NCBI RefSeq assembly: GCF_019263705.2
Contig: NZ_JADQDK010000001.1
Location: 6,200,001-6,264,000, forward strand
Source of the DNA: Pseudonocardia abyssalis
Lineage (GTDB): Bacteria > Actinomycetota > Actinomycetes > Mycobacteriales > Pseudonocardiaceae
Length of the DNA stretch: 64,000 bases
Direction: 5' to 3'
In this document: positions 1,869-63,847 of the stretch, piece after piece
Numbering within the stretch: the stretch's first letter is position 1
How the letters are laid out: every line of letters starts with the position of its first letter
The notes under the pieces: generated by a model
Seen by the model: the letters and a program-made list of their open reading frames with translations, nothing else
Database searches by the model: none
What the model was told of the DNA's origin: nothing
Program-made: the position numbers and the translations under genes

Positions 1869-1901
1869 ACGCGGTCGTCGCACTGCGACGAGGCGGCATG
1901 G

Positions 1902-1975: not shown

Positions 1976-2030
1976 ATGCGCACCGGCCGGAGCCGGGAAC
2001 CGCTCCAGCTTAACGTGACCCCGCGAGCCG

Positions 2031-2633
2031 TTAACCCCGGGGTGCGAGCGCTGCGGCCACGGCCTGAGCCTGCTCGGTGCTCGGGCCGGGCTGGGCGACG
2101 AACAGCGTGCCGCGGTAGTAGGCGAGCTCGCGGATCGACTCCTCGATGTCGGCGAGTGCGCGGTGGGCGAGGCCCTTCTCCGGCTTCGCGTAGAACACCC
2201 GCGGGAACCAGCGGCGGCACAGCTCCTTGATCGAGCTGACGTCGACCATGCGGTAGTGCAGGTGGGCGTCGAGCTCGGGCATGTCGCGGCCGATGAAGCC
2301 GCGGTCGGTGCCGATGGAGTTGCCGGCGAGCGGGGCGGTGCGGACGTCGGGGACGTGCTCCCTGACGTAGGCGAGCACCTGCTCCTCGGCCTCGCGCAGC
2401 GTCACCGCGGAGCGGCGGACCTCCTCGGTGAGGCCGGAGTGCGCGTGCATGTCGCGGACCACGTCGGGCATCGCGGCGAGCGCGGACTCGTCGGCGTGGA
2501 TGACGACGTCCACCCCCTCGCCGAGCACGTTCAGGTCACCGTCGGTGACCAGGCAGGCGATCTCGATCAGAGCGTCGCTCTGCAGGTCGAGGCCGGTCAT
2601 CTCGCAGTCGATCCACACCAGACGGTCGTTCAC
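2031..2633 (-). CDS. orn: Oligoribonuclease (DEDDh 3'-5' exoribonuclease)
   Basis: Orn finishes RNA and c-di-GMP turnover by degrading 2-5-nt oligoribonucleotides in the cytoplasm. Residues 9-11 (D-C-E in [10 protein letters not shown]) are the first DEDDh acids. The segments [18 protein letters not shown] and [12 protein letters not shown] supply the rest of the exonuclease fold. The GTG at 2633 gives 200 residues, the usual length; an in-frame ATG at 2699 would add a non-conserved, Pro/Ala-rich extension. The gene is divergent from the HerA-like ATPase and sits beside tRNA-His. Confidence 0.95.
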
Positions 2634-2709
2634 CCCGCCAGCGTAGGCGCTGGTCGGCGGCACGGCCGGGTTCCCGTGCGGCGCGTCGGTGGCGGACATG
2701 ATCGGGCGA

Positions 2710-2715
2710 TAGGGT
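2710..2715 (+). promoter_or_regulatory. Likely -10 box of a leaderless promoter (TAGGGT)
   Basis: TAGGGT fits the TANNNT -10 pattern and ends 7 nt before GTG 2723. Transcription would therefore begin at or next to the start codon. The same spacing recurs before several other genes in this window. Confidence 0.5.
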
Positions 2716-2722
2716 GCGCGCC

Positions 2723-4258: not shown

Positions 4259-4275
4259 CGCCGAGGGCCGCAGAA

Positions 4276-4296
4276 CGAACACGTTCGGTCACGAAC
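4276..4296. promoter_or_regulatory. Overlapping inverted repeats upstream of the beta-helix gene
   Basis: CGAAC-AC-GTTCG-GTCA-CGAAC forms two nested palindromes that share the central GTTCG. They lie in the 139-bp gap between the HerA-like gene and the secreted beta-helix protein, about 75 bp before a CATACT -10-like box at 4372-4377. They could be an operator or part of a terminator. The 2-bp and 4-bp spacers were compared with the actinobacterial SOS box and do not fit it well. Confidence 0.3.
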
Positions 4297-4397
4297 GGAA
4301 CGAGAACGACGCGAAACGACCACACCCCTGGGCCGATCGGCACGTTAGGGACTGCAGTACGTGATCGCGCTCATACTCGATGCCATTGGGGTTCGTG

Positions 4398-5789: not shown

Positions 5790-5799
5790 CTCCCGCTGA

Positions 5800-5834
5800 C
5801 GCGGCGCCGGTCGGGATCCCCGACCGGCGCCGCG
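5800..5834. terminator. Bidirectional hairpin terminator between convergent genes
   Basis: A perfect 16-bp stem closes a 3-nt loop in the 45-bp gap between the beta-helix gene and the convergent glycosyltransferase. There is no T-tract, which is normal for GC-rich actinobacterial terminators. It should serve both strands. Confidence 0.8.
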
Positions 5835-6917
5835 CTACGTCCGGACCAGGGACTCCAGCTCGTCGGCGGCCGCACCGGCGCCGTCGCGGGACCGGATCCG
5901 GGCCCCGACGGCGGCCGCGGCACCCCGGTGTGGCCCGTCCCCGAGCAGCGCGGTGACCGCCGCGGCGATCTCCGCCGGCGGGCTGCCCGGCGACAGGGCC
6001 CGCCCCGCCCCCGACGCCTCGACGGCCGCCCCGATCATCGGGTGCACCAGCTGGGGATGCCCAGGCAGGACGAGGACCGGCAGGTCGTTGGCGAGCGCAC
6101 GCACGGTCGTGGCGTGCCCGCCGTGGCCGATCAGCAGGTGGGCGCGGGAGAGCACGTCGGCGTGGTCGAGCCTGCGGTGGAGCCGCACGCCGTCGGGCAC
6201 CCGCAGCACCTCGCCGTCCACCCCGTCGCCGATGCCCACGACCGCGGTGCCGTCCAGGCCGTCGAGCGCGTCGAGCACCCGCTGCAGCAGCTCGGTCCGC
6301 CCCGGGTAGGCGCCGGTGCCGAGGTCGACGGCGACGAGCGCGTCGGGTTCCCGGGCCGGCGGCCGCAGCCGCCCGGTGACGGCGCCGGTGTGCACCGCGC
6401 CGGCGGGCAGCGGGCCGTCCAGGTCGGGGTCGGTGGCCACGAGCACCCGCGCTGCCCGGCCCCACAGCGTCGCGGGCCGCAGCCGCCGCAACCGGGAGGC
6501 GAGCCCGAGTGGCCCGGTTGCCCAGCGCTCGGCGAGGAACCGGTACAGCGTCGGCACCAGCACCGCGGTCGGGATCCCGGAGCGCTCCGCCTCCCGCACG
6601 GCGGCGAGGCAGGTGGCGTCGACGAGCACGACGTCCGGGCGGCGCCGCGCGAGCTCGGCGCGGACGTCGACCCCGGCCCCCGGATCCAGCGCCAGCGCGA
6701 CCCGGGCGGCCAGGAACCGGTTCTCCGGGATGTCCGCGGCCGGGGACAGGGCGGCGGCGTGGGCGTACGCCGCGAACCCGAGGCCGGCACCGTTCACCGC
6801 GGCGTACCGATCGGCGTGGTCGAGCACGCGCACGTCGTGGCCGCGCCGGACGAGCTCCGTGCCGATGACCAGCGGGGTCGTGTCCCCGCCGCGGGCGACG
6901 ATCAGGATGCGGGACAT
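5835..6917 (-). CDS. UDP-glycosyltransferase, GT1/MGT family
   Basis: The 360-residue protein has the GT-B layout of GT1 enzymes. The N-terminal Rossmann half starts MSRILIVARGGDTTPLV. The C-terminal nucleotide-sugar-binding half ends with the signature HGGHATTVRALANDLPVLVLP followed by HPQLVHPMIGAAVEASGAG. Such enzymes glycosylate small molecules (macrolides, polyketides, xenobiotics). No biosynthetic cluster is nearby, so detoxifying glycosylation is as likely as antibiotic decoration. It appears to be a single-gene unit ending at the shared terminator. Confidence 0.82.
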   Translation of the reverse strand: MSRILIVARGGDTTPLVIGTELVRRGHDVRVLDHADRYAAVNGAGLGFAAYAHAAALSPAADIPENRFLAARVALALDPGAGVDVRAELARRRPDVVLVDATCLAAVREAERSGIPTAVLVPTLYRFLAERWATGPLGLASRLRRLRPATLWGRAARVLVATDPDLDGPLPAGAVHTGAVTGRLRPPAREPDALVAVDLGTGAYPGRTELLQRVLDALDGLDGTAVVGIGDGVDGEVLRVPDGVRLHRRLDHADVLSRAHLLIGHGGHATTVRALANDLPVLVLPGHPQLVHPMIGAAVEASGAGRALSPGSPPAEIAAAVTALLGDGPHRGAAAAVGARIRSRDGAGAAADELESLVRT

Positions 6918-7003
6918 CGGGTGTCCTCCGTGCGCGGGTCCGGGCGGGCGCCGTCACCGTACGCGACGTGGGCGGGTCGTCGACGCGGCGCGGGCCGCCG
7001 CCG

Positions 7004-8485
7004 TCACCGGCGCAGGAACGGGGTGATCAGGCCGGGGACGGCGGCGTCGGCGAGGGCCACGCCGTCGGCCGCAGCGACGTCGAGGACGGTGTAGCCGCCC
7101 TGCCCGGCCGCCGTCACCGCCTCGACCGTGACCACCCCGGCCCGGCGCTGGAACACGCTCTGCCGCACCGTCCAGCCGATCACACCGTCGCGCTGCAGCG
7201 CGACGGTGGTGCGCACCAGCGAGCCCTGCCGGGCGACGAGGTAGCGCGCGGTGAGCTGGTGCCCGAGCTGGGCGTAGCGGTCGAGGCCCAGCAGCACGGC
7301 GACGGGGAGCAGCAGCAGCGACGTCGGCCCCGCCCAGCCGGGCCCGAGCAGGAAGGCGGCGGCGCACACCACCACGGCGGGCACGAGGGTGCGGGTGAGG
7401 CGGCGGGTCCGGGCCGCGGCCGGGTGGGTGCGCAGCGCGGCCCCGGTGATCTCCGCGGGGTGCGCGCGCAACGTGGCGGACGCGACGCGGTGCGCCTCCG
7501 CGCGGGGGGCCGGGGGCTGCAGCGCGCCGCCCTGCGCGTCGCGCGAGAGCCCCGTCGACAGGGCCCGGCACTGCGCGCCGCGTCCGAACCGCAGCAGGAC
7601 GGGCTCGCTGATCTCGGCCCCGCGCAGCCGCTGCTCGGCCACCGACAGCGAGCGCTGCGTCAGCAGGCCCCGCTTCACGCGCAGGGTGCCGTCGGCCTCG
7701 CGGGTGAGGCGGTAGCCGTACCAGCGCTCGGCGTAGAGGAGCACCGACCCGACGACGGCCAGCACCAGCAGCACCCCCACGACGACGAGCACGCCCAGCC
7801 AGATCGGGGCGCTCGCGAAGCGGCCCGCGGCGTCGTCGACGGCGCCGATGTCGCGGGGGTCGACGCCCAGGTCGTCGACCAGGTTGAACAGGGTCGCACC
7901 GATCGCGCCGATGCCGGCGATCGAGGAGAACGTGAGCGGGGCGAAGCGCAGCCAGGACCAGTCGAGGCGGGCGAGCAGCTCACCCGGCGCGGCCTCCTGC
8001 GCCGCGACGGCGGCGGGCCCGGACCGGTCCAGCAGCTCGCGGCGCAGGAGATCGGCCTCGGCCCTGCTGACGGCGTCGAGGCTCAGCCCGGCCGACTCCA
8101 GCGGCGATCCCGACGCCGCCCCCACCTGCACCACCGACAGCCCGAACGCGCGGTGCAGCAGCCGGGCGGTGAGGTCGACGGAGCGGATGCGGTCGCGCGG
8201 AACCGAGCGGCGCTGGCGGCGCAGCCACCCGGTGTGCAGCTCCACGCGGTCCGCCGTGATCCGGTACCGCGTCGTGCGCCAGCGGACGATCCCGGCCAGC
8301 ACCACGACCCCGGCCGCGACGGCGGCGATCCAGAGCCGGACCGGGTCGCCGGTGCCGCCGGTGACCAGCAGGATCAGCACCAGCGGGACCAGTCGCCCGA
8401 GGCTGCCCAGCGGGCCGACGACGAGCATCCGCGGATCGAGCCGGCGCCACGGCTGCTCGCCGACGACCTGGTCGACGGCGGTCAC
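7004..8485 (-). CDS. Membrane protein with bPH2 domains (YdbT-like)
   Basis: The 493-residue integral membrane protein has hydrophobic hairpins near residues 25-65, 175-200, 220-255 and 370-410. Three bacterial PH-like (bPH2) segments contain motifs such as TTRYRITADRVELHTGWL and YGYRLTREADGTLRVKRGLL. It overlaps the smaller PH gene by GTGA (8482-8485). In Bacillus the paired ydbS/ydbT genes have been tied to resistance against an antimicrobial peptide. That is family knowledge, not something shown here. The pairing strongly suggests one membrane complex. Confidence 0.82.
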   Translation of the reverse strand: MTAVDQVVGEQPWRRLDPRMLVVGPLGSLGRLVPLVLILLVTGGTGDPVRLWIAAVAAGVVVLAGIVRWRTTRYRITADRVELHTGWLRRQRRSVPRDRIRSVDLTARLLHRAFGLSVVQVGAASGSPLESAGLSLDAVSRAEADLLRRELLDRSGPAAVAAQEAAPGELLARLDWSWLRFAPLTFSSIAGIGAIGATLFNLVDDLGVDPRDIGAVDDAAGRFASAPIWLGVLVVVGVLLVLAVVGSVLLYAERWYGYRLTREADGTLRVKRGLLTQRSLSVAEQRLRGAEISEPVLLRFGRGAQCRALSTGLSRDAQGGALQPPAPRAEAHRVASATLRAHPAEITGAALRTHPAAARTRRLTRTLVPAVVVCAAAFLLGPGWAGPTSLLLLPVAVLLGLDRYAQLGHQLTARYLVARQGSLVRTTVALQRDGVIGWTVRQSVFQRRAGVVTVEAVTAAGQGGYTVLDVAAADGVALADAAVPGLITPFLRR

Positions 8486-8982
8486 GTCGCGTCGCCCGGG
8501 GTGGCCTGCGTCGTCTCGGTCAGGGTGCGGGCCAGCTCGGCGGCCTCCCGCGCGTCGAGCCCGGCGATCTTCACGGCGCCGCGGGCCGAGGCCGTCGTCA
8601 CGGTGACGGTGGCCAGCTTCAGGAGCTGCTGGAGCGGCCCGTGCTGGGTGTCGACGGTCTGCACGCGCGAGATCGGCGCGATCCGCCACTCCCGCACGAG
8701 CCAGCCCGACAACGTGTAGACGGCCTCGTCGGTGATCTCCCACCGGTGGATGCGGAACAGGATGCGCGGGACGACGAGCACGTAGACGAGGACGACGGCG
8801 ACGGTGGCCGCGAGCGGGTACGCCCAGGCGGGTGCGCCCGTCGTCAGCAGGAGGACGAGCTGGGGCCCGCCGAGCGCCACCAGCCACAGGAGCGCCCGCA
8901 GCTGCCACCAGCGCACGGCCCGCGGGCTCACCTGGTGCGCGGGCGGGCGCAGCGGCGGTTCGACGGTCATGGCGCCGATCAT
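8482..8982 (-). CDS. Small PH-domain membrane protein (YdbS-like)
   Basis: The 166-residue protein has two N-terminal transmembrane helices near residues 30-75 and then one bPH2 domain (RIHRWEITDEAVYTLSGWLV, then RVQTVDTQHGPLQQLLKLAT). The start ATG at 8982 overlaps the stop of the upstream acyl-CoA dehydrogenase-like gene (ATGA). The gene overlaps the larger partner by GTGA, giving a translationally coupled three-gene unit. ATG 8970 is an alternative start. Confidence 0.85.
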   Translation of the reverse strand: MIGAMTVEPPLRPPAHQVSPRAVRWWQLRALLWLVALGGPQLVLLLTTGAPAWAYPLAATVAVVLVYVLVVPRILFRIHRWEITDEAVYTLSGWLVREWRIAPISRVQTVDTQHGPLQQLLKLATVTVTTASARGAVKIAGLDAREAAELARTLTETTQATPGDAT

Positions 8983-10091
8983 GCCCGGCCGGTGAACGCG
9001 CGGAGCTGCGCGACCCGCACCCCCGCGGTCTGGGCCTGGATCAGGTGGAACGCCGCCTCGCGGGCCCAGCGTTGCTCCGGGCTGGTGCGCAGGAGCGCGC
9101 TCCCGGACCGCGCCGCGACGAGGGTGTGCGCGCCCCGCACCACCAACTCGGTGACGGCCGCGCGCACCGCCGTCCGCTCGGCCACCGGGGCCGTCGACCC
9201 GTAGGCCTCGCGGCGCAGTGCGGCGGCCCGCGGGGCCAGGTCCAGCGCGGCGTCGAGGGCTTCCGGCCGGGATGCGCCCAGGTCGGCGAGCGCCACCAGC
9301 ATCGCGCGCAGGAGACCGAAGGAGGCGGGCGTCGCGTTCGCGGTGCGGGCGGCGTCGTGGGCGCGCCAGGCCACGGCGTCGATGACGGCCAGCACGTCGT
9401 CGGCGTCGACGGTCAGGCCGTCCAGCTCCAACGCGACGGTCCGGGTGCCGCCCATGACGGCGAGCGGGAGCGGCGCACCGGCGCGCAGCCCCGGCCGTTC
9501 GCGGGCCGGGAGGAGGGCGAGTACGAAGCGGTCGTCGGCGGTCGTCGCGGCGATCATGACGACGTCGAGCAGGCCCCACCCGGTGCACCAGTCGGCGGCA
9601 CCGTGGAACGTCCACCCGGTGCCGGCGGGCTCGGCGCGCACCGCGGGCGGGCCGGGGCGGCGGACGTGCGCGATCGCGATGCCCGCCCGCGTCGTGGCGG
9701 CGGACAGGCGGGCGCGGTACCGGTCCGCGGCCGGCCCGGCCCGGTACCCGTCGAGGCCCGGGAGGGGCCCGCGGGACAGCGCCTGCGGGACGCGGTGCTG
9801 GGTGGTGAGGAACCAGGTGGCGCCGCAGGCCCCGGCGACCTGCTCGACCACCGCCGCGTCGACCGACTCGTCCGCCCCGTGCCCACCCTCGGCCACCGGG
9901 ACGCGGGTGCTCAGGAGCCCGGCCTCCGCCAGGACGTCGAGGTGCGCCGGGTCGACGCCGTGCGCGGCGTCGTCGGCGGTGGCGGCGTGCGGGACCAGGA
10001 GGTCGGCGGCGATCCGGGCGGCCGCGACGACCGCCGGATGGCCGTCGACGCCGGGGAGGGCGAAGTGCTCGAGGACGGTCGCTGAACCCAC
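8979..10091 (-). CDS. Acyl-CoA dehydrogenase-like flavoprotein
   Basis: The 370-residue protein follows the acyl-CoA dehydrogenase plan. The helical N-terminus ends in ACGATWFLTTQHRVPQA, a mid beta-domain contains GWTFHGAADWCTGWG, and a helical C-terminus follows. The usual C-terminal R-D-x(n)-EGT signature is absent, so it belongs to a divergent branch such as flavin-dependent hydroxylase or desulfurisation-type homologues and may not use CoA esters. GTG 10091 is the first good start. It is coupled by ATGA to the PH-domain pair, an unusual partnership. Confidence 0.7.
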   Translation of the reverse strand: MGSATVLEHFALPGVDGHPAVVAAARIAADLLVPHAATADDAAHGVDPAHLDVLAEAGLLSTRVPVAEGGHGADESVDAAVVEQVAGACGATWFLTTQHRVPQALSRGPLPGLDGYRAGPAADRYRARLSAATTRAGIAIAHVRRPGPPAVRAEPAGTGWTFHGAADWCTGWGLLDVVMIAATTADDRFVLALLPARERPGLRAGAPLPLAVMGGTRTVALELDGLTVDADDVLAVIDAVAWRAHDAARTANATPASFGLLRAMLVALADLGASRPEALDAALDLAPRAAALRREAYGSTAPVAERTAVRAAVTELVVRGAHTLVAARSGSALLRTSPEQRWAREAAFHLIQAQTAGVRVAQLRAFTGRA

Positions 10092-10199
10092 TCTCCCGAC
10101 GCTACGTCCTCACTCCGACCCCCGCCGCACGATCGCCGCGGTCCGCACGGTGTCGCCCTGTTCGGGACCGTGGAGTGCGACGCGGGCCGATCTTCGAGG

Positions 10200-11078
10200 T
10201 CAGGGGAGCGGGAGGACCGCGGTGGCGTGCAGCGCGACGTAGGGCAGGGCCGCGACACCGCAGGAGGCGGGGCGGTGGCCGACGCCGGGGCGCTCCGCGA
10301 CCTCCACCGCCCACCGTCGGCCGGCGGGCCCGGAGACCACGACGGTGCCGGGACGGGCGAGGGGGTCAAGGGTGAGTGCGTCGGCGTCGCGCAGGCCGGT
10401 GGCGTCGCGCACGGCGAGCTCGGCGACCTGCCCGGCCGCCGACCACGTCGACCGGCCCCGGCTCAGCCCGGCCTCCATCTCGCCCAGTGCGGCGGCCTTG
10501 CGGGCGGAGATCGCGGTGGCCGCGTCCAGGCGGCCGTAGAGGTACCCGGTGGGGAGCACGAGCGCGGTGGGGGCGAAGCGGTGCCCGCCGAGGTGGCTGC
10601 ACTCCCACACGTTCGGCTCCCCGACGGTGGTGACGGCGACGGCGAGCGCGCGCCCGTCGACGGCGCAGCAGCGGTCGCGGCGGCCGTGCGTGCAGACCAG
10701 CAGCAGGGGGTCGCGCACCGGTTCCCCGGGGATCGGGGTGTCGGCCCGGGGCAGCGGCACCGACGTGAGGTCGTGGGGGCCGGTGATCGTCAGCACCGTG
10801 GTGCGGGCCGCGCCGGGCACGGTGTCGGCCAGGAACACGCGCGTGGGGCCGTCGGGTCCGCGGCGGCCGGGACGGCGGATCAGCAGCGGCCGCCAGCCCG
10901 CGGCGCTGGCCCGGGCCGCGAAACCGGAGATCGACGGGTCCGGGTGGGAGGCGATGTCGCGCGGCCAGGCGCCGCGGTGCTCGAGGGCGACCCAGCGCGC
11001 GGCCTGCGGTGCGGTGCCGGCCAGCGGCTCGTCGACGGCGCGCGCGAGGACCGCGCAGCGACCCTCGCAACCCGTCAT
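10200..11078 (-). CDS. Sucrase/ferredoxin-like family protein (thioredoxin-fold Fe-S type)
   Basis: The 292-residue protein carries the family cysteines: CEGRC at the N-terminus, VCTHGRRDRCCAVDGRALA in the middle, and the conserved WECSHLGGHRFAPTALVLP block. Members resemble thioredoxin-like [2Fe-2S] ferredoxins; their physiological partner is generally unknown. ATG 11078 sits 6 nt downstream of a TACCTT -10-like box (11085-11090, minus strand), so it may be leaderless. An imperfect inverted repeat at 11094-11107 lies just upstream. Confidence 0.8.
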   Translation of the reverse strand: MTGCEGRCAVLARAVDEPLAGTAPQAARWVALEHRGAWPRDIASHPDPSISGFAARASAAGWRPLLIRRPGRRGPDGPTRVFLADTVPGAARTTVLTITGPHDLTSVPLPRADTPIPGEPVRDPLLLVCTHGRRDRCCAVDGRALAVAVTTVGEPNVWECSHLGGHRFAPTALVLPTGYLYGRLDAATAISARKAAALGEMEAGLSRGRSTWSAAGQVAELAVRDATGLRDADALTLDPLARPGTVVVSGPAGRRWAVEVAERPGVGHRPASCGVAALPYVALHATAVLPLP

Positions 11079-11093
11079 CGGGTGAAGGTACCG

Positions 11094-11107
11094 TAAGGGT
11101 GCCCTAA
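11094..11107. promoter_or_regulatory. Imperfect inverted repeat upstream of the sucrase/ferredoxin-like gene
   Basis: TAAGGGTGCCCTAA lies immediately upstream of the candidate -10 box and in the gap to the acyl-CoA ligase. It resembles half-sites of an iron (IdeR/DmdR) box, but the arms are too close together. The function is unknown. Confidence 0.25.
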
Positions 11108-11128
11108 CACGCCCGGGTGAACGGATGG

Positions 11129-12694
11129 TCAGCCCGTGAGCTCGCGGTGCACGACCTTGCCGGTCGCGTTGCGCGGCAGCTCGTCGAGGAAGACCACGTC
11201 CCGGGGCACGGCGAACCGGCTCAGCTCCGCCCTGACCCAGCCGCGCACCGCGTCCGCGTCGACCGACGTCCCGGGCTCCAGCACGACGTACGCGGCGAGC
11301 CGCTGGCCGTACTCGTCGTCGTCGACGCCCGCGACGGCCGCCTCCCGCACCTCCGCCCGCGCGACGATCAGGTCCTCCACCGGGCCGGGGTGCACGTTCT
11401 CCCCACCGCTGACGATCATGTCGTCGGCGCGGCCGGTGAGGTGCAGCCGCCCGTCGGCGTCGACCCTCCCGACGTCGCCGGTGCCCATGAGGTCCCCCGA
11501 CCGCTCGACGTCGGCACCTTCGCGCGTGTAGCCCTCGAACGGCATGTCGTTGCCGACGAACACCCGGCCCTCGGTACCGGCGGGCACCTCGTCGCCGTGC
11601 TCGTCGAGGACGGCGAGCCGCGTGCCCAGCGGCGCGCGGCCCGCGGTGCCGGGTGCCGCGCGCAGGTCCCCGGGCCCGGCGATGCTGACCCAGGAGACCT
11701 CGGTGGAGCCGTAGAGGTTGTAGAGGACCTCGCCGTGGCGGTCGAGGAACGCCGTCGCGAGACCTGCGGGCAGCGCCGACCCGCTGACGGCGACGACCCG
11801 CGCCATGGCGCCCCCGGCGGGCTCGTCCATCGCGCGCTGCAGCATCACCGGGACGGCGAACACCGCGTCGCAGGTCGCGGCGATCTCCAGGAACCGGGCG
11901 GGGTCGAACTTCGCGCTCAGCACGACGGGGGAACCCAGCAGCATCGCGAGCTGCAGCGCCGCGTGTCCCCAGGTGTGCAGCAGCGGCGCCGCGATGTGCA
12001 CCGGCTCGCCCGCGCGCAGCGGGATGGAGCCGAGCACGGCGGCGATGGGCGCGAGGTTGTGCGGCGGCGGGCGGCGGGCACCCTTGGGCGGGCCGGTCGT
12101 GCCGGACGTCAGCACGATGGTGTGCCCGCCGGTGGGGCGGAAGGGCAGCGGGCCGGGGCCGCCGCGCGCGATCAGGTCGGTCAGGTCGCGGACGACACGG
12201 CACGAGTCGGGCAGGTCGGTGAACTCGGCGTCGGCGAGCAGGGTGTGCACCCCGAGCTCGTCGACGACGTCGGCCCGCTGACCGGCGGACATGCCCGTGT
12301 TGAACAGCACGACGTCGGCGCCCAGCTTGCCCACGGCGATCTGCATCTCGACGGGGCCGCGGTGGTTGCGGCACAGCACGCCGACCCGCGTGCCCTCGCC
12401 GACCCCGCTCGCGGCGAGCGCCTTCGCGAGGCGGTCGGTGCGCTCGTGCAGCTCGCCGAAGGTGAGGGTGCCGTCGTCGTCGACGATCGCGGGCCGGTCG
12501 GGGTGCCGGGCCGCGCCCGCCTCGTACCCGGCCGCGACGCTCAGCCGGTAACGCACGGCCGCCGTCGCCATGCGGGCGAGCCGGTCGGGCCGCACCGGGC
12601 CGATCAACCCCGCCCGCCCGAGCTCGCGCAGCGCGCGCGCCGTGCCGACCGCCTCGTCCGCCACCGCGCGCGCGGTGCTCCACACCAGGTTCAC
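11129..12694 (-). CDS. Fatty-acid--CoA ligase (FadD-type AMP-binding enzyme)
   Basis: The 521-residue ligase has the AMP-binding motif LTSGTTGPPKG near residue 190, NLYGSTE near 320, TGDVGRVDADGRLHLTGRADD near 415 and the C-terminal catalytic motif RNATGKV. It resembles the mycobacterial FadD2/FadD12-like branch with an N-terminal helical extension. The start is GTG 12694. The gene stands alone; its 5' end faces the terminator of the GT39 gene. The acyl substrate is unknown. Confidence 0.87.
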   Translation of the reverse strand: MNLVWSTARAVADEAVGTARALRELGRAGLIGPVRPDRLARMATAAVRYRLSVAAGYEAGAARHPDRPAIVDDDGTLTFGELHERTDRLAKALAASGVGEGTRVGVLCRNHRGPVEMQIAVGKLGADVVLFNTGMSAGQRADVVDELGVHTLLADAEFTDLPDSCRVVRDLTDLIARGGPGPLPFRPTGGHTIVLTSGTTGPPKGARRPPPHNLAPIAAVLGSIPLRAGEPVHIAAPLLHTWGHAALQLAMLLGSPVVLSAKFDPARFLEIAATCDAVFAVPVMLQRAMDEPAGGAMARVVAVSGSALPAGLATAFLDRHGEVLYNLYGSTEVSWVSIAGPGDLRAAPGTAGRAPLGTRLAVLDEHGDEVPAGTEGRVFVGNDMPFEGYTREGADVERSGDLMGTGDVGRVDADGRLHLTGRADDMIVSGGENVHPGPVEDLIVARAEVREAAVAGVDDDEYGQRLAAYVVLEPGTSVDADAVRGWVRAELSRFAVPRDVVFLDELPRNATGKVVHRELTG

Positions 12695-12757
12695 GCCGCG
12701 ATCTTCGCAGCGCGGTGGGCCGGACGCAGGGCGACCCCGCTCCGCGAGCCGGGCGGG

Positions 12758-12798
12758 GGCACGTCGGGCCGCCGGAGGGGGCGGCGGCCCGACGTGCC
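12758..12798. terminator. Hairpin terminator of the GT39 gene
   Basis: Arms 12758-12773 and 12783-12798 form a perfect 16-bp stem with a 9-nt loop. It begins 3 nt beyond the stop codon of the minus-strand GT39 gene. No T-tract follows, as usual for this GC content. Confidence 0.8.
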
Positions 12799-12801
12799 GG
12801 T

Positions 12802-14760
12802 TCAGCCCGCGAGGTCGTAGACGGTCTGCCCGCCCACGGTCGTCGCGGTGTAGGTGGCGGCGACCCAGGCGGCGATCTCGGAGTTCCCGCGCCCGCCGAC
12901 GTCGGTGGACCCGATGAAGTACCGGATCTCGCCCGAGGCGACGTGGCCCCGGAACTCGGTGAGCGTCGGGGCGGGGTCGCTGCCGGTGAACCCGCCGATC
13001 GCCATGACCGCGGTACCCGAGGACAGCTCCAGGCCCGCCGCGCCCTGCGCGCCGACGGTCGCCGCGGCCCAGCGCGTCCCGGCGTCCTGCAGGAGCGCCA
13101 CGAGCGCGGGATCGGACTCGACGGCCTCACCCGGGCCGCCGCCCATGCCCGTCCCGCCGCGCATCGCGCCGCCGCCGGGGACGGTGCCGGTCGGCGCCGT
13201 CCCCCGGGGCGCCCCGTCCGGACGGGTGCCGTCGCCGGGGAGCCCGCCGGCGGGGAGGTCCCCGCCGGGGAAGCCTCCCGGGAAGCCGCCGCCGGGGAAT
13301 CCGGTCCCACCCTCGACGGTCGGCCCGGCCAGCACGATCGAGCCGGTGTGGGCGGTCGCGGCCGTCTGCACCGCGTACGCCGTGGGGCCGGCCAGCCCGG
13401 TCAGCGCGACGACCAGCACCGCGACCACCCCGGCCCGGCGTCCCGTGCGTCCCAGCAGCAGCACCGCGACGGCCACCACCGCGAGCCCGACGACGACCCA
13501 GCGCAGCCAGGGCAGGAAGTCCGGCGACCGGCCGAGCAGCACCCAGGCCCACGCCGCGGTCCCGGCGGTGACGACGGCCAGCGCGGCCCGACCCCGCCAC
13601 GTCGACCGCTGCTGCCACAGCGCGTGCCCGCCGACGCCGACGAGCGCGGCGATCCCGGGGGCGAGCGCGACCGAGTAGTACTCGTGGATCGTGCCCTCCA
13701 TGAAGGAGAACACCAGCCCGGTGACGACGGTCCAGCCGCCCCACAGCAGCAGCGACGCCCGCAGCGGGTCGGTGCGCGGGGCCCGGCGCGTCAGCCACAG
13801 CCCGACGACGAGCAGCGCGAGCGCGGCCGGCAGCAGCCAGGAGATCTGACCGCCGAAGTTCGAGCCGAACAGCCGTGTCAGGCCGACGGTGCCGCCGAAG
13901 CCGCCACCACCACCGATGCCGCCGCCCATGTTGCCGGAGCCGCCGAGGATCCGGCCGAGCCCGTTGTAGCCCAGGGCGAGCTCCAGCGCGCTGTTCGTCT
14001 CCGAGCCGCCGATGTAGGGACGGCTGTCGGCGGGCCACAGCTCGACGAGCGCGATCCACCAGCCCGCGCTCACCACCACAGCGACGCCCGCCAGCAGCAG
14101 CTGCCACAGGCGGCGGCGCAGGCCGGTCGGCGCGGCCACCAGGTAGACCAGCACGAACGCCGGCAGCACCAGGAAGCCCTGCAGCATCTTGGCCAGGAAC
14201 GCGAACCCGATCAGCACGCCGGCGAGCACCGACCAGCGCGTACCGGCCCGCTCCACCGCGCGGACCGTCGCGTACGCCGCGCCCACCATGAGCAGCACGA
14301 GCAGCGCGTCGGGGTTGTTGAAGCGGAACATCAGGACGGCGACGGGCGTCAGCGCCATCACGGTGCCCGCGACGAGAGCGGCGCCCGGCCCGGCCACCCG
14401 GCGTACCGCCGCGTGCAGCAGCGCGACCGTGCCGACGCCCATCAGCGCCTGGGGCACGAGCATGCTCCATGTCGAGAACCCGAGGATCCGCGCGGACAGG
14501 GCCATCGCCCACAGCGATGCGGGCGGCTTGTCGACGGTGATCGCGTTCGCCGAGTCCAGCGAGCCGAACAGGAACGCCGTCCAGTCCTGCGACATCGCCT
14601 GCACGGCGGCGGCGTAGTAGCTGTTGGCCCAGCCGTTGGCGTCGAGGCCCCAGATGTGGAGCACCGCCGTCCCGACGAGCAGGATCGTCAGCGGTGCCCG
14701 CCTCCGTACGGGGGCGGGGGCGGCAGGGGCCGGAGCGGGTCGGTCGAGGGTGGCGGTCAT
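12802..14760 (-). CDS. ArnT/PMT-like GT39-family membrane glycosyltransferase
   Basis: The 652-residue protein has about a dozen transmembrane helices. Its N-terminal first loop carries LDSANAITVDKPPASLW, and the acidic D-K-P motif is typical of polyprenyl-phosphate-sugar-dependent glycosyltransferases. Conserved FRFNNPDALLVLL and EYYSVALAPGIAALVG follow. A glycine stretch (about residues 270-285) and a Gly/Pro-rich linker (about 510-570) precede a soluble C-terminal domain. The gene overlaps the GT2-GtrA gene by ATGA, which would provide and flip the lipid-linked sugar donor. A truncated paralogue lies at 17155-17649. Confidence 0.88.
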   Translation of the reverse strand: MTATLDRPAPAPAAPAPVRRRAPLTILLVGTAVLHIWGLDANGWANSYYAAAVQAMSQDWTAFLFGSLDSANAITVDKPPASLWAMALSARILGFSTWSMLVPQALMGVGTVALLHAAVRRVAGPGAALVAGTVMALTPVAVLMFRFNNPDALLVLLMVGAAYATVRAVERAGTRWSVLAGVLIGFAFLAKMLQGFLVLPAFVLVYLVAAPTGLRRRLWQLLLAGVAVVVSAGWWIALVELWPADSRPYIGGSETNSALELALGYNGLGRILGGSGNMGGGIGGGGGFGGTVGLTRLFGSNFGGQISWLLPAALALLVVGLWLTRRAPRTDPLRASLLLWGGWTVVTGLVFSFMEGTIHEYYSVALAPGIAALVGVGGHALWQQRSTWRGRAALAVVTAGTAAWAWVLLGRSPDFLPWLRWVVVGLAVVAVAVLLLGRTGRRAGVVAVLVVALTGLAGPTAYAVQTAATAHTGSIVLAGPTVEGGTGFPGGGFPGGFPGGDLPAGGLPGDGTRPDGAPRGTAPTGTVPGGGAMRGGTGMGGGPGEAVESDPALVALLQDAGTRWAAATVGAQGAAGLELSSGTAVMAIGGFTGSDPAPTLTEFRGHVASGEIRYFIGSTDVGGRGNSEIAAWVAATYTATTVGGQTVYDLAG

Positions 14761-15983
14761 GACACGGACTCCTTCGGGCGGAAGATCCAGGTGCGGAAGG
14801 CGACGAAGCGGAGCAGCGTCGCGAGGGCGTTGGCGGCGATGAGCACCGCCAGCTCGACGGCCGCGCTCGCACCGGGTGCGGCGGCGGAGAGCAGGGCCAG
14901 CGCGCCGGTCGTCAGTGCGAGTCCGAGACCGAACACGATCAGGCCCTGGAACTGCTGCGCAGCGGCGCCGTCGCGGCCGCGGACCCCGAACGTCAGGCGC
15001 CGGTTGGCCGCGGTGTTCGCGACGGCGGTGACGAGCAGGGCGACGAGGTTGGCCGCGTACGCCCCGAGGGGGTCGCGCAGCAGCAGGAAGACCAGCAGGT
15101 GGGCCACCGTGCTGACGACGCCGATCGCGGCGAAGCGCACCAGCTGACCGGGCATCCCGGTGGGCACGCCGGCCACCTCCAGCGAGGGGCGGGCGAGCTG
15201 GCCGCGCAGTTCGCCCAGCGGCAGCGCCCCGGTGGCGAGCGCGCGTCCGAGCCGGGCGATGCCGCGCAGGTCGGCGAGCGCGGTGGGCACGATGTCGACG
15301 CGGGAGTCGGGGTCGTCGACCCAGTCGACGGGTACCTCGTGGATCCGCAGCCCGGCGCGCTCGGCCAGCACCAGTAGCTCGGTGTCGAAGAACCACCCGC
15401 CGTCCTCGACGTGCGGCAGCAGCGCATGCGCCACGTCGGCGCGGATGGCCTTGAACCCGCACTGCGCGTCGCTGAACCGCGCGGCCAGCGCCCCGCGCAG
15501 CAGCAGGTTGTAGGACCGCGAGATGAACTCCCGCTTGGCCCCGCGGACCACCCGGGACCCGCGGCCCAGCCGGGTGCCGATCGCGAGGTCGGAGTGCCCG
15601 CTGATCAGCGGGGCGACCAGCGGCAGCAGGGCGGCGAGATCGGTCGACAGGTCGACGTCGCAGTAGGCGAGGACCTGCGCGTCCGAGGACTCCCAGACGG
15701 CGTGCAACGCCCGGCCACGGCCCTTCTCCGCCATTCGGAACACCTCGACGCCCGCCAGCTCGTCGGCGAGCCTCCGCGCGATCCGCGGGGTCGCGTCGGT
15801 GCTCGCGTTGTCGGCGATCGTGATGCGGAACGGGTAGGGCAGCTGGGCTGACAGGTGCGCGTGCAACCGCCGGACCGACGGTTCCAGCGCCGCCTCCTCG
15901 TTGTGGACGGGCACGACGAGGTCCAGCACGGGGCCGCCGGCGCGGGCCCCGGGCGGTGCGGCGGGGGCGGTCTCGACGGTCAT
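14757..15983 (-). CDS. GT2 glycosyltransferase fused to a GtrA membrane domain
   Basis: The 408-residue protein starts with a GT2 catalytic domain of dolichol-phosphate-mannose-synthase type. Visible features are VVPVHNEEAALEPSVRRL, ADNASTDATPRI, the DVD of AYCDVDLSTD, and QCGFKAIRADVA. A GtrA domain of four transmembrane helices follows from about residue 270 (QLVRFAAIGVVSTVAHLLVF). Such fusions make a polyprenyl-phosphate sugar and probably move it across the membrane. The GT39 transferase is translationally coupled downstream. The array of 22-bp repeats begins about 75 nt upstream. Confidence 0.9.
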   Translation of the reverse strand: MTVETAPAAPPGARAGGPVLDLVVPVHNEEAALEPSVRRLHAHLSAQLPYPFRITIADNASTDATPRIARRLADELAGVEVFRMAEKGRGRALHAVWESSDAQVLAYCDVDLSTDLAALLPLVAPLISGHSDLAIGTRLGRGSRVVRGAKREFISRSYNLLLRGALAARFSDAQCGFKAIRADVAHALLPHVEDGGWFFDTELLVLAERAGLRIHEVPVDWVDDPDSRVDIVPTALADLRGIARLGRALATGALPLGELRGQLARPSLEVAGVPTGMPGQLVRFAAIGVVSTVAHLLVFLLLRDPLGAYAANLVALLVTAVANTAANRRLTFGVRGRDGAAAQQFQGLIVFGLGLALTTGALALLSAAAPGASAAVELAVLIAANALATLLRFVAFRTWIFRPKESVS

Positions 15984-16057
15984 GGCACGAGCGTGTCGAT
16001 CTCCGCTGTCGGGCCCGTGTGGCCGACCTGTGCGTCGGCTGTGCGTCCCTCCCCGCC

Positions 16058-16145
16058 GAGTTTGCCGATCACACCCGGCGAGTTCGCCGATCAGGCCCGG
16101 TGAGTTCGCCGATCCGCTTCGGTGAGTCGGCCGATCACGCCCGGT
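16058..16145 (+). repeat. 22-bp tandem repeat array, four units
   Basis: Four exact-length 22-bp units have the consensus GAGTTCGCCGATCASGCCCGGT. They end 4 nt before the stop of the decayed histidine kinase. The same unit family appears in inverse orientation at 17713-17800 and 33806-33890. Confidence 0.85.
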
Positions 16146-16148
16146 CGG

Positions 16149-16790
16149 TCAGAACTCGGCACCGTCGTCGTCGGCGTCCCGCCCGTCGCGGACCCCGGTG
16201 GTAGCCGGTGAGCCGGTCGCGGATCGCCTCGGGATCGCGCCGGCGCAGCGGACCGGCGGGCCGGCGCGCTCCCCGGCACGAGCTGCGCGCCGGGGGTGCG
16301 CTGCGGCGATCCGTTGGCGTCGAGGTCGACCGGGAACGGGCCGCCCGGTGCGGCGTCGTCGGCCGGCCCTGCTGAGCCGGGACCGGGGCCGCCTGCGGAA
16401 CCGGCTGTCGACGCGGGGTGGACCCGACGACGAGGTGGCCGGGATGGCGACGCGCGGTGATCCCGGGGTCGCCGGTGATGGACGAGACCGACACCACCTC
16501 GCCGCCGCTCTGCACGCGGGCCTGCGCCAGCCCGGCGCCGGTCACGAGCCGGACGTCGATGCCGTGCCGCGAGCCGCGCGACCACGAACAGCCCCATCGC
16601 CGTGACGCCGTGCCGCCGACCTCGGTTCGCCGGGCCGGCGACCGGTTCGCCTCCGCCAGGTCCTCGGCGGGCATTCCCACGCCCGTGTCGGTGATCTCGA
16701 CGACGAGCGGCCCGTTGCCGGAGCGGACGACGCGCCTCCGCACCGGCGCGACCGGCGGGAGAAGTTGGTGGCGTTGTCGAGCAGTTCGGC
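16149..16790 (-). pseudogene. Frameshifted C-terminal half of a sensor histidine kinase
   Basis: Spread over different minus-strand frames one can read a GHKL ATPase domain in order. ELLDNATNFS (N-box) lies near 16785, then VVEITDTGVGMPAEDL (G1 box), then MGLFVVARLAARH (G2 region). The tail RDRLTGYHRG and DGRDADDDGAEF ends in a stop at 16149. At least three frame changes are needed, one within the last 50 nt. The 5' part (sensor and dimerisation domains) is missing. The family resembles the nitrate/sulfonate-type kinases of actinomycete conservons. Confidence 0.75.
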
Positions 16791-57139: not shown

Positions 57140-57184
57140 TGGTGCCCTCGGCAGGACTCGAACCTGCGACCTAGAGATTCCGAG
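57140..57184 (-). other. Attachment-site scar: 3' fragment of a tRNA gene
   Basis: On the minus strand this reads as the 3' half of a tRNA. It has a 7-nt anticodon-loop-like sequence, a 5-nt stem strand, a variable loop, a perfect T-arm (GCAGG-TTCGAGT-CCTGC), the 3' acceptor strand CGAGGGC, A73 and encoded CCA. No matching 5' half (GCCCTCG...) lies upstream on that strand. This is the pattern left when an element integrates into a tRNA 3' end. The intact tRNA should lie at the element's far end, right of the window. tRNA identity is uncertain. Confidence 0.75.
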
Positions 57185-57960: not shown

Positions 57961-57994
57961 CCAGTCGCTAGCCGTCTGCGGGTGAACTGATCAG

Positions 57995-58084
57995 CAAGGG
58001 CGATCCCGCTGCGCCGGGCGAGCCCCGCCGGGAGCGGAGCGGCAAGGCGGGGTCTGGCCCGGCGGCGCGCGAAGCGCGCCCTTG
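57995..58084. repeat. Compound nested hairpin structure in the mobile element
   Basis: An outer 8-bp stem (CAAGGGCG / CGCCCTTG) encloses two inner hairpins. The first has GCCGGGC / GCCCGGC plus CCCCGCC / GGCGGGG with a small internal loop (58013-58063). The second is GGCGCGC-GAA-GCGCGCC (58064-58080). All stems are perfect. It lies between the lipoprotein and the low-GC nuclease-like gene and could be a terminator, a transfer or replication locus, or a non-coding RNA fold. Confidence 0.75.
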
Positions 58085-58233
58085 ATGATGAAAGAGGTCA
58101 ACGCGGCAACGTGGCGGCAACGGACTTGCGACGGTGCTTCGCTACAGGTGCGGCGAAACCTGCGTCTCGTAGCCCGGACTCGTGGATCTGCAGCCGGCTG
58201 GAGCCTGACAGCCGGGGTATCAGCTCCGCTGGC

Positions 58234-59154
58234 CTACGCCCAACCCAGCGTGTCGCGTGTGTAGACCGATCCAATGATGAGGGCGAGGAAGTTGACAATC
58301 TCCGCGAATAGTTCCGCTGGCATCGCCGCCTCGGCTGGAATGTATGCGGCCTGAAATCTTACGAGTGCGTGGTAAACAGACTCCAGGATAACCGTGTGGA
58401 TCATCTCGGCATCGCTGAAGTCTTCATTCATGTCAGCAAGAAGCAGATTTCCGAGAGGGCTGGGAGAAGGGTCTTCTCGGCGTGACCTGGTGTACTCGAA
58501 GACGATCTCCTGAAAGTCTGCTGAGATCATCCATCCGTCTTTTCCATTGGGCAGAAGCGTCCCGATATCAAACGCAATCTGAGCAAGTCTGTCATACAGC
58601 TCGTGTTGCAGATCCAGAGTTTCCTTGCCGTCAAGCTCTCCTAAAGATTTCAAGTGAGATATCGTTGCGATGTTTCTCATTGCATGGCGGAAGCGGGTCT
58701 TCCATGCCAGAATCTTGACTGCTGGAATATCGAAAGCCTGCCGCTTGTCGAACTTTATGGTTTGGGTTCCCGACTTATCGACGGGGATCCGCTTGGAGTA
58801 ATCGCTACCATCGGGGATCAGGTACCAGCCACAGTCATTTGTGACGTCCCATCGAACTATTACTGCCAAGTCTGCACTCTTCACCCAGCGGGCGAGATGT
58901 CCGTTAGATATTGCGACAGCTTTCGGGGATGCTGAATCGCGGAGTGAGGTTCCCTTGAATCCTTTCACCTGTATCCAGATTTTAGAGTCGTCCATTTCCT
59001 GTTCGATACAGGTCTGAACGAGTAAGTCTTCGCCAAAGTCTTCATTGTTGATACTCGATATGTAGTCCGCCAAAGCGCAGACCTTCATCACGGATACTTC
59101 CGCAAGATGGCCAATCTGCCGGTTGGCGTCCTTTCTGGGTCTGCCACGTTTCAT
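58234..59154 (-). CDS. DUF4365-like PD-(D/E)XK-fold protein with AT-hook-like N-terminus
   Basis: The 306-residue protein starts MKRGRPRKD, an AT-hook-like minor-groove motif. A DUF4365-type nuclease core follows: GHLAEVSVMK (Glu19), EDFGEDLLVQ (Asp43) and WIQVKG (Gln62-x-Lys64), then HLARWVKSADLAVIVRWD and CGWYLIPD. This E-D-QxK layout is the catalytic pattern of PD-(D/E)XK nucleases. The C-terminal 160 residues are helical and unrecognised. The gene is strikingly lower in GC than all backbone genes, so it is recent cargo. A defence role is possible but unproven. Confidence 0.72.
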   Translation of the reverse strand: MKRGRPRKDANRQIGHLAEVSVMKVCALADYISSINNEDFGEDLLVQTCIEQEMDDSKIWIQVKGFKGTSLRDSASPKAVAISNGHLARWVKSADLAVIVRWDVTNDCGWYLIPDGSDYSKRIPVDKSGTQTIKFDKRQAFDIPAVKILAWKTRFRHAMRNIATISHLKSLGELDGKETLDLQHELYDRLAQIAFDIGTLLPNGKDGWMISADFQEIVFEYTRSRREDPSPSPLGNLLLADMNEDFSDAEMIHTVILESVYHALVRFQAAYIPAEAAMPAELFAEIVNFLALIIGSVYTRDTLGWA

Positions 59155-59263
59155 CGGGGCAAAGTACCCGGCTACCAGCAGGTCATGTCGCACAACTCGA
59201 CATGCCGCTGTCTTGGCTGGCACCGGCGCGAGCGGGCGGCGTCGTTCCGGGGTCCGATCCGGC

Positions 59264-60136
59264 CTACCCGGCTACGGGCCGGCCGGCACGGGTGAGGGCG
59301 ACGCCGGCCAGGATGAGGACACCGCCGATGGGCAAGGTCAAGCTCGCGGGCTCGTTGAGAATCAGGACGCCGAGCAGCAGCGCGATCGCGGGAACCAGGT
59401 AGGTCACGACGCTGGCGGCGGTGGCGCCTTCGGTGGCGATGAGCTGAAAGTTGATGATCAGCGCGATACCGGTCCCGATGATGCCGAGGATTAGGACGGA
59501 CACGGTGGGCAGCGCCTCGGGGCCGTGGATCGCGCCGCTGAACGGCAGGGCTACGGCGAGGATGCCGGTTGCGATCACGAGCTGTGCGACGGTCAGCGTC
59601 AGGGGTGAAAGTCCGCGGTTGGTGAGGAAGCGGGCCTGGTAGATGTAGGCCAGTCCGTAGCTGGCTGCGGCGCCGATGCAGGCGAGCACTCCGCCGGTTG
59701 TGCCGCTGGCCAAGCCGTTCCACGGCTCGAACACCACAATGACGCCGACGAATCCGAGGGCAACGCCCGCGCTGCGTCTAACTGTAAGCCGGCTGTCGCT
59801 GCGGGTCGCTGTCGCGAGTAGCAGCGTCCACAGTGGAGTTGTGGCGTTGATGACGCCAGCCAGGCTCGACGACACGGTCTGTTCCGCAACGGCAAACAGT
59901 GTGTAGGGGATCGCATTAGCAATCAGCGCGGAAACGGTGAGGTGAAACCACTTTGCCCGGCCGGCCGGCCGCGGTAGCCGGCGCACGAGCACGATCGGCA
60001 CGAGCACCAAGGCGCCAAGCGCGAGCCGGGCGAATGTGAGCTGTATTGGGGTGAATCCGTCGAGCGCCAGTGCGATCCAGAAGAATCCCGATCCCCACAG
60101 CAGGGCGAGTGCGGCGATCAGGCCGGTGGTGCGCAC
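59264..60136 (-). CDS. EamA/DMT-superfamily exporter
   Basis: The 290-residue integral membrane protein has about ten helices in two EamA repeats (LLWGSGFFWIALALDGFTPI at the start; IGTGIALIINFQLIATEGAT and LVPAIALLLGVLILNEPASL in the second). Such proteins export metabolites or drugs. GTG 60136 directly follows the stop of the GntR regulator with no spacer. The exporter is thus translated with the conjugation regulator, which is unusual for backbone genes and suggests captured cargo. Confidence 0.88.
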   Translation of the reverse strand: MRTTGLIAALALLWGSGFFWIALALDGFTPIQLTFARLALGALVLVPIVLVRRLPRPAGRAKWFHLTVSALIANAIPYTLFAVAEQTVSSSLAGVINATTPLWTLLLATATRSDSRLTVRRSAGVALGFVGVIVVFEPWNGLASGTTGGVLACIGAAASYGLAYIYQARFLTNRGLSPLTLTVAQLVIATGILAVALPFSGAIHGPEALPTVSVLILGIIGTGIALIINFQLIATEGATAASVVTYLVPAIALLLGVLILNEPASLTLPIGGVLILAGVALTRAGRPVAG

Positions 60137-60913
60137 CTATTCGACGGGGGCGTCGTAGCGCAGTCCCGACAGATCGGCGCGCATGACGAACCGCGTCAGC
60201 TCGTAGGGCTCGCCCTCGGTGTCGATGCTGGTGTGTAGGACGTCGAGCACTGGGACGCCGGGGGAGAGCTGTAGGTGCTCCCGCTCGTCGGGGGTGGGCA
60301 TCCGGGCGCTGATCTCGTCGTGGATGCGGGCCATTAGGTGCCCGCGTTCCTCCAAGATCCCGTGGATGCCGAACGGGTGTCCCACCTCGTCGCGCAGGAG
60401 CGCGGTGCTGTCGGCGAGTGCCCACGGCAGCCACGTCGTGACCCGTTGGACCGGGTCGGCGTCGGCCCAGAACACGTTCTCGCGGCGCAGGGCCGACGGG
60501 GTGTCGGGGGAGATCTTCAACCGTGCGGCGACGTCGGCCGGCGGGGTGACCCGCTCGACGGACAGCACCTCGAACCGGCCGGCCTTGCCCTGCTTCGCGC
60601 ACTCCAGCAGGAACGGCGACAGGCCGGTGTCGCGGTAGCGGGGGCTGTAGCGGTCGTTCCCGAGGCGGATCACGGAGATGGCCGGCCGCACGAACACCCC
60701 GCGGCCGTGCTCGGCGATGACTAGCCCGCTCTCGGCGAGTAGCCGGATGGCCTGGCGGGCGGTGTTGCGCGCGATGCCGTGGAACTCGGCGAGCTCGCGT
60801 TCCGAGGGCAGCTTCGCGCCGGCCGCGAGCTCGCCGGACTCGATGGAAACGCGCAGCTCATCGGCCAGGCGCTCGCTGGCCGGACGACGGTCGCCGCCCT
60901 CGGAAGAAGTCAT
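60137..60913 (-). CDS. GntR/UTRA-family regulator, KorSA-like repressor of the element
   Basis: The 258-residue protein has a winged helix-turn-helix (residues about 12-78; KLPSERELAEFHGIARNTAR, then AEHGRGVFV) and a UTRA effector domain (about 95-255). In pSAM2 the GntR-type KorSA represses pra and thereby replication and transfer. Here the same divergent arrangement holds. ATG 60913 lies 7 nt from a TACGGT -10 box that abuts a palindrome, so autorepression is expected. Unlike KorSA it is linked to an exporter and might sense its substrate. Confidence 0.88.
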   Translation of the reverse strand: MTSSEGGDRRPASERLADELRVSIESGELAAGAKLPSERELAEFHGIARNTARQAIRLLAESGLVIAEHGRGVFVRPAISVIRLGNDRYSPRYRDTGLSPFLLECAKQGKAGRFEVLSVERVTPPADVAARLKISPDTPSALRRENVFWADADPVQRVTTWLPWALADSTALLRDEVGHPFGIHGILEERGHLMARIHDEISARMPTPDEREHLQLSPGVPVLDVLHTSIDTEGEPYELTRFVMRADLSGLRYDAPVE

Positions 60914-60920
60914 GTCACCC

Positions 60921-60926
60921 ACCGTA
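60921..60926 (-). promoter_or_regulatory. Likely -10 box of the GntR gene (TACGGT)
   Basis: TACGGT on the minus strand ends 7 nt before ATG 60913, giving a leaderless transcript. Its outer edge touches the first ACTGGC palindrome. Confidence 0.5.
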
Positions 60927-61017
60927 CTGGCTTGCGCCAGTCAGGTGAAATCCATAGGTCGCCGTTCCTGTGTCATGCGCCACGTGCTCTACTGGCTCAA
61001 GCCAGTTAGCCAACTGG
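60926..61017. promoter_or_regulatory. Three ACTGG palindromes in the GntR/pra divergent promoter
   Basis: Palindrome 1 (60926-60941) is ACTGGC-TTGC-GCCAGT, palindrome 2 (60991-61006) is ACTGGCT-CA-AGCCAGT and palindrome 3 (61002-61017) is CCAGTT-AGCC-AACTGG. Palindromes 2 and 3 overlap. Palindrome 1 covers the GntR promoter, and 2 and 3 lie 26-52 bp before the pra start. They are the likely operators of the GntR repressor. Confidence 0.8.
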
Positions 61018-63034: not shown

Positions 63035-63847
63035 ATGCGCGCCATCCGCCGCCGATTCCGCCCGCGCGCCTGCCCGATCGACCTCGCGCCCACCTCGATC
63101 TGGGACCCGATCCGGCTCGGGATCGACGAGAACGCCTGCCCCGTCGACATCACGCTCATCTACCGCAACATCCTGCTGGCCGGGGAGCCCGGCGCCGGCA
63201 AGTCCGGCGGGCTGAACCGGATCACCGCACACGCCGCCCTCGCGACCGACTGCCGGCTGTGGCTGATGGACGGCAAGCGCGTCGAACTCGGCCTCTGGCG
63301 ACGCGCCACCGACCGGTTCGTCGGCCCCGACCTCGCCGAGGCCATCGACGCGCTCGGGGAGCTGCAGGCCGAGATGGACCGCCGCTACGACCAGCTCGAC
63401 GCCGACAGCGCACGGCAGATCGAGCGCAACGACTGGACCGACGCGATCATGCTCGTGATCGACGAACTCGCCTACTACTCGGCCACGGCGGGGGACAAGA
63501 AGCAGCGCGACCAGTTCTCGCTGCTGCTGCGCGACATCGTCGCCCGCGGCCGCGCCGCCGGCATCATCGCCGTGGCCGCCACCCAGCGCCCCAGCCACGA
63601 CATCATCCCGGTCTCCTTGCGGGACCTGTTCGGCTACCGGCTCGCGTTCCGCTGCACCACCGAGACCAGCTCGGACATCATCCTCGGCCACGGCTGGCAC
63701 ACCCGCGGCTTCGACGCCTCCACAATCGACCCGGAGGACCGCGGCGTCGGCTGGCTGCTCGCCGAGGGCGGCATCCCGCGCCGGATGCGCTGCACCTGGC
63801 TCACCGACGCCGACATCGCGTCCGTCGTCGCGGCGGTGACCTCGTGA
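63035..63847 (+). CDS. FtsK/SpoIIIE-type DNA translocase, TraB/TraSA-like conjugation protein
   Basis: The 270-residue protein has Walker A at residues 50-57 (GEPGAGKS), Walker B at about 137-144 (AIMLVIDE) and the FtsK-like AATQRPSHDIIPVSLRDLF after it. It is short, like the pSAM2 transfer protein TraSA, and moves double-stranded DNA between mycelia as a hexameric pore motor. No transmembrane helix is present; the preceding membrane protein may supply the anchor. It overlaps the next gene by GTGA. Confidence 0.9.
   Translation: MRAIRRRFRPRACPIDLAPTSIWDPIRLGIDENACPVDITLIYRNILLAGEPGAGKSGGLNRITAHAALATDCRLWLMDGKRVELGLWRRATDRFVGPDLAEAIDALGELQAEMDRRYDQLDADSARQIERNDWTDAIMLVIDELAYYSATAGDKKQRDQFSLLLRDIVARGRAAGIIAVAATQRPSHDIIPVSLRDLFGYRLAFRCTTETSSDIILGHGWHTRGFDASTIDPEDRGVGWLLAEGGIPRRMRCTWLTDADIASVVAAVTS

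Follow-up and report, generated by a model that had tools for sequence, protein, structure and literature searches.

A divergent DUF4365/DREN-type nuclease gene with a helical C-terminal domain on an integrative element of Pseudonocardia abyssalis: a possible accessory defence gene

Results

The gene described here lies on the minus strand at 58234-59154 of the window, by which we mean the whole 64,000-nucleotide stretch of Pseudonocardia abyssalis DNA that was analyzed (contig NZ_JADQDK010000001.1, positions 6,200,001 to 6,264,000), and is carried by an actinomycete integrative and conjugative element (AICE). It was recognized from its open frame and its relatives, and encodes a 306-aa nuclease of DUF4365/DREN type with a helical C-terminal domain; the frame is not a chance one, since the protein is homologous to other proteins. 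The translation begins MKRGRPRK. Starting from the GTG at 59223 would lengthen the protein by 23 aa, while the starts of relatives lie near the ATG. The low GC content noted in the original prediction was borne out, with a value of 0.515 for the gene versus 0.741 across the window and 0.596 at third codon positions (GC3), where values for the element's EamA, GntR and FtsK genes range from 0.82 to 0.97. A search of the genome for further copies found the gene in one place only.

Residues 5-166 (58657-59142, minus strand) form a PD-(D/E)XK, DREN-like nuclease domain. Conservation was assessed in an alignment (A3) of 32 sequences, drawn from a set of 38 made up of the proteins P0001-P0029 and nine genes from related loci (numbered L). 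The short fragments P0027 and P0029 were omitted, as were the genes of L006 and L007 (regarded as duplicates of P0007 and P0006), L008 (whose C-terminus differs by eye) and L010 (a fragment). Residues D39, G41, D43, Q62 and K64 were invariant in all 32 rows, giving the DxGxD...QxK pattern of the DUF4365/DREN family. This motif, D39-x-G41-x-D43 ... Q62-V-K64 (codons 39-64; 58963-59040, minus strand), is the likely active site, D43, Q62 and K64 being its probable catalytic residues as had been proposed. The DREN domain of NbaSPARDA uses D41, Q60 and K62, with the same spacing, and requires tetramers (PMC12205087).

The original prediction had named two outcomes beforehand as refuting it, a predicted structure lacking a nuclease fold and homologues in housekeeping surroundings lacking catalytic conservation. 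Neither came about: a nuclease fold was obtained, and the catalytic residues were conserved. The predicted PD-(D/E)XK fold matched solved DREN domains, those of SPARDA being the clear top structural matches. In the PDB, DUF4365-type sequence matches were confined to SPARDA DREN chains and were weak as sequence matches (best E 0.0013). The window nuclease itself gave no match to Pfam DUF4365 (PF14280) at E <= 1 and so falls short of the curated cut-off, which was passed by its relatives P0002-P0005; 31 of the 32 aligned members matched DUF4365 at E <= 0.01. We therefore name it a divergent homologue of the DUF4365 family.

Two further proposals did not hold. E19, which had been counted among the catalytic residues, occurred in a single row of the 32, that of the window protein (five rows are gapped there). 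A GRP or RGRP motif near the N-terminus, read earlier as an AT-hook by which RGRPRK could target AT-rich DNA, was likewise seen in the window protein only (1/32), where Pfam AT_hook scored 12.2 bits, below its cut-off of 17.4. Because each feature is found in this one protein, neither is central to the working of the family, and both a catalytic role for E19 and an AT-hook aimed at AT-rich DNA were rejected as family features.

The remainder of the protein, residues 167-306 (58237-58656, minus strand), is a predicted helical C-terminal domain which is kept across the family and has no recognized relative, helix being predicted from about residue 160 onward. Positions conserved family-wide are W151 and R154 at the junction, and F214, G277 and P279 are nearly invariant. 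When the domain was folded alone the model was weak (pLDDT 65) and fold searches with it gave no significant match, in keeping with the earlier description of a long unrecognized domain; on the same weak model, no APAZ domain was recognized after the nuclease. Structural matches of the protein covered essentially the nuclease part, with one row (9jt2_B) extending to residue 277. Nonsynonymous divergence was lower than synonymous divergence in both halves of the gene in 5/5 pairs, with synonymous sites near saturation.

The family was found in 1 of the 62 genomes of the genus and, in a class-wide sample, in 4 of 394 genomes including the window's own, the other three matches being weak. At all nine related loci the gene, or gene piece, is lower in GC than its surroundings. 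A genome of the window's genus, G434, lacks 1,155 bp that include the entire nuclease gene: in it the 3' portion of EamA (window 59279-59463) and the segment found downstream of the nuclease (window 57971-58123) are 18 bp apart. As the G434 contig is a degraded piece, it shows absence and not a clean ancestral site. In a Tardiphaga metagenome-assembled genome (MAG) a relative lies between glpK and ruvC (flanks named by eye), and the place that takes up 1,055 bp in this carrier measures 166 bp in a congeneric genome (G406). DNA flanking the Tardiphaga locus was matched in 18/18 genomes of its genus; the nuclease stretch was matched, among the matches listed, only in the locus's own genome. In these two backgrounds the nuclease gene has the look of a one-gene insertion.

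Two side observations concern these loci. The downstream flank of the Tardiphaga locus is partly multi-copy; a sequence about 470 bp long, upstream of ruvC (L009:8872-9330), recurs many times in the genome of this locus and in others of the Tardiphaga group. Streptomyces sp. ISL-87 has, near a contig end, a short and probably broken gene piece closely related to the L005 gene (L010:4619-4858).

The carrying element is delimited by a 38-bp direct repeat. The near copy, a tRNA-Arg 3' fragment at 57142-57179, marks the near end of the element, and the far copy lies outside the window, within an intact tRNA-Arg (TCT) at genome 6267127-6267164 (67127-67164 if the window numbering is continued); the copies share 37 of 38 positions, with one mismatch, and span 10.0 kb from att to att. 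Between them are a RepSA-type replication protein (PF20199, E 5.8e-96), an FtsK/SpoIIIE-type transfer protein (63035-63847, plus strand; PF01580) and a tyrosine integrase (PF00589). By this gene set and its tRNA att repeats, the element is a pSAM2-type AICE. The nuclease gene lies about 1 kb from the near att copy with one small frame between (DUF732-like, below cut-off), which agrees with its earlier placement as cargo by the att end.

On the other, upstream side of the nuclease gene are an EamA-family transporter gene, neighbouring cargo (59264-60136, minus strand), and the GntR/UTRA regulator of the element (60137-60922, minus strand). A perfect 7+7 bp inverted repeat, CATGTCG-N7-CGACATG, lies between the EamA gene and the nuclease ATG at 59184-59204; when up to 2 mismatches are allowed the window has no other match (expected 0.40), and the repeat is possibly an operator or other control site of the nuclease gene. 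Separately, ACTGGC-N4-GCCAGT occurs twice upstream of the GntR gene (60926-60941 and 60991-61006), and the window has no further copy when up to 1 mismatch is allowed (expected 0.17); the two are likely operators of the GntR regulator.

Selected neighbours of five related loci (L002, L003, L004, L005 and L008) were scanned with PADLOC, and defence-like neighbours were seen at three. These were an N6-methyltransferase and a GIY-YIG protein matching PDC-S57 at L003, an SMC-like ATPase with generic PADLOC matches at L004, and a type IIG restriction-modification enzyme at L008. With so few loci, the neighbour evidence is only suggestive. BLASTP among the 101 predicted proteins of eight related loci and the window revealed no recurrent partner gene, the home-made gene finder used having overlooked the DUF4365 gene at L006 and at L009. 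Besides the DUF4365 gene, the similarities were among GntR-type genes (L008, L009 and the window), among FtsK-type genes (L008 and the window) and in two short matches (22 and 37 residues). In L008 (Streptomyces sp. RB17, 1504-16470) the DUF4365 gene has in its vicinity GntR and FtsK-type genes similar to those on the window AICE, as well as the type IIG restriction enzyme.

The genome holds a second DUF4365 gene, in L011 (G000:C1:5314203-5317604; at 5315.7 kb). Its 211-aa product (1312-1947) matches PDC-M02A (1.1e-18), and the overlapping gene (1944-3101) encodes a 385-aa partner matching PDC-M02B (5.3e-62), with which the C-terminal domain of the window nuclease showed no similarity (prob 0.1). 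L011 is a complete PDC-M02 pair, and the genome therefore has a predicted two-gene defence candidate as well as a solitary nuclease of the same family on an AICE. Upstream of the L011 pair is a frame resembling, by eye, a tyrosine integrase.

Discussion

We give about an even chance to the reading that the protein is a stand-alone DREN nuclease under the control of its own C-terminal domain, acting in accessory defence. The helical domain would take the place that APAZ-Argonaute has in SPARDA and would hold the nuclease inactive until an invader is sensed, perhaps by controlling oligomer assembly. Once activated, the nuclease may degrade cellular DNA with little sequence preference, which would block phage or plasmid or else kill or arrest the cell. 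The AICE would then carry it for accessory defence, shielding the element's host as well. The fold, the motif, the conservation and the mobility are computational results; the C-terminal control, the trigger, the collateral DNA cutting and the defence role we infer from several lines of evidence. SPARDA DREN domains are the top structural matches, the motif is invariant, and precedents are given by NbaSPARDA and by the DUF4365-APAZ protein TmuRE-Ago, for which non-specific DNA degradation is described (PMC10810196). EAT16, in which DUF4365 is coupled to a different second domain, is toxic without Argonaute (PMC11297309). Further support comes from the excess of synonymous over nonsynonymous change, the patchy occurrence in the genus, the low GC at every related locus and the look of a one-gene insertion, and also from the second DUF4365 gene with its PDC-M02B partner and the defence-like neighbours at three of five loci.

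Several observations weigh against this reading. The window nuclease had no PADLOC match at E <= 1, and the matches of its family were weak, 22 of the 32 members matching an Argonaute-associated restriction endonuclease (best E 1.4e-7) and 13 matching one PDC-M02A model. The other genes of the element had no defence match except the FtsK-type ATPase. The selected neighbours at L002 and L005 had no PADLOC match, and L006 and L009 are set, by eye, among ordinary genes. No relatives were found in searches of P0001 and A3 against viral contigs, of P0001 against phages, and of P0002 and P0006 against plasmids. No trigger for the nuclease was identified.

The C-terminal domain could instead read a modified base or a site at which the DREN domain then cuts, making the protein a one-gene modification-dependent or sequence-selective restriction enzyme of type IV-like kind. 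We consider this unlikely, as no modification-reading domain was recognized, be it SRA, EVE, winged-helix or another, the NhoI score lies within the range that the tool calls a common arrangement, and the best matches are collateral nucleases rather than site-specific ones. That the nuclease serves the AICE itself, in maintenance, in exclusion of competitors or as a resolvase-like enzyme of DNA processing in transfer or replication, is less probable still. More constant presence would be expected of a backbone function, but the nuclease-bearing segment is absent from the related element fragment in G434 and relatives occur away from such elements, one of them between glpK and ruvC. The toxicity of EAT16 would also suit the nuclease half of a toxin, either of a toxin-antitoxin pair or of a delivered effector; as neither a small antitoxin gene nor an immunity gene can be made out beside the nuclease gene, we think this quite improbable. 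Least probable, and very much so, is a selfish homing-type endonuclease that inserts copies of its gene at empty sites, given that the insertion sites are unrelated intergenic places with no common target seen, that SPARDA is a far closer match than I-Ssp6803I, and that the two empty sites are not clean, their junctions holding 18 and 166 bp of other sequence.

Returning to accessory defence by a self-controlled DREN nuclease, a bolder form of it is that the family is an undescribed one-gene immune system. Here a DREN nuclease without Argonaute or guide would be triggered by a fused non-APAZ helical domain that directly senses the invader, would destroy DNA collaterally, and would have spread as single-gene islets in actinobacteria and alphaproteobacteria and been loaded onto AICEs. 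This we advance tentatively, as a possibility clearly less likely than not. Searches of the literature on DUF4365, DREN/SPARDA and PDC-M02, from which subscription papers were largely missing, turned up no account of a DUF4365 protein acting alone in defence; this is no proof of novelty. If true, such a protein would offer a compact means of finding out what holds a nuclease of this kind off, and would be a candidate defence module on actinomycete conjugative elements.

Comparison with known systems

The window element resembles other pSAM2-type AICEs in having RepSA, an FtsK-type transfer gene, a GntR regulator, a tyrosine integrase and tRNA att repeats, and differs from them in the nuclease, which is not part of the AICE backbone. 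PDC-M02 consists of a DUF4365 protein (M02A) and a partner of about 385 aa (M02B). The window gene shares with it the DUF4365 nuclease, and 13/32 family members match M02A weakly, but the window nuclease itself has no M02A match and none of the nine element genes scanned matched M02B.

EAT16 is a two-domain toxin associated with eCIS; it is toxic in E. coli and loses toxicity on change of motif residues (PMC11297309). Like the window nuclease it has an N-terminal DUF4365 domain with DxGxD...QxK followed by a second domain, and it acts without Argonaute; unlike it, EAT16 is reported as an injection-system toxin, and the likeness is drawn by the N-terminal half only.

SPARDA is alike in its PD-(D/E)XK DREN domain and its D...QxK site, with an identical 19-residue spacing from D to Q (PMC12205087). 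The window element has no Argonaute gene among the element genes scanned, and the nuclease is a 306-aa protein with a shorter helical second half, compared with 442-467 aa for DREN-APAZ chains in the PDB. None of the eight carrier genomes, the window's own included, gave a match to Piwi (PF02171); of the controls only M. jannaschii did, and as these included no genome with a known short prokaryotic Argonaute, a very divergent Piwi could be missed. On the absence of Piwi, membership in SPARDA was rejected. Studies of DREN/DUF4365 nucleases have dealt mainly with their use as a weapon by short Argonautes, in which pairing of guide and target leads to filament assembly and collateral cutting; a version carried as a single gene with its own second domain would, if the reading is true, be the same weapon wired to a different trigger.
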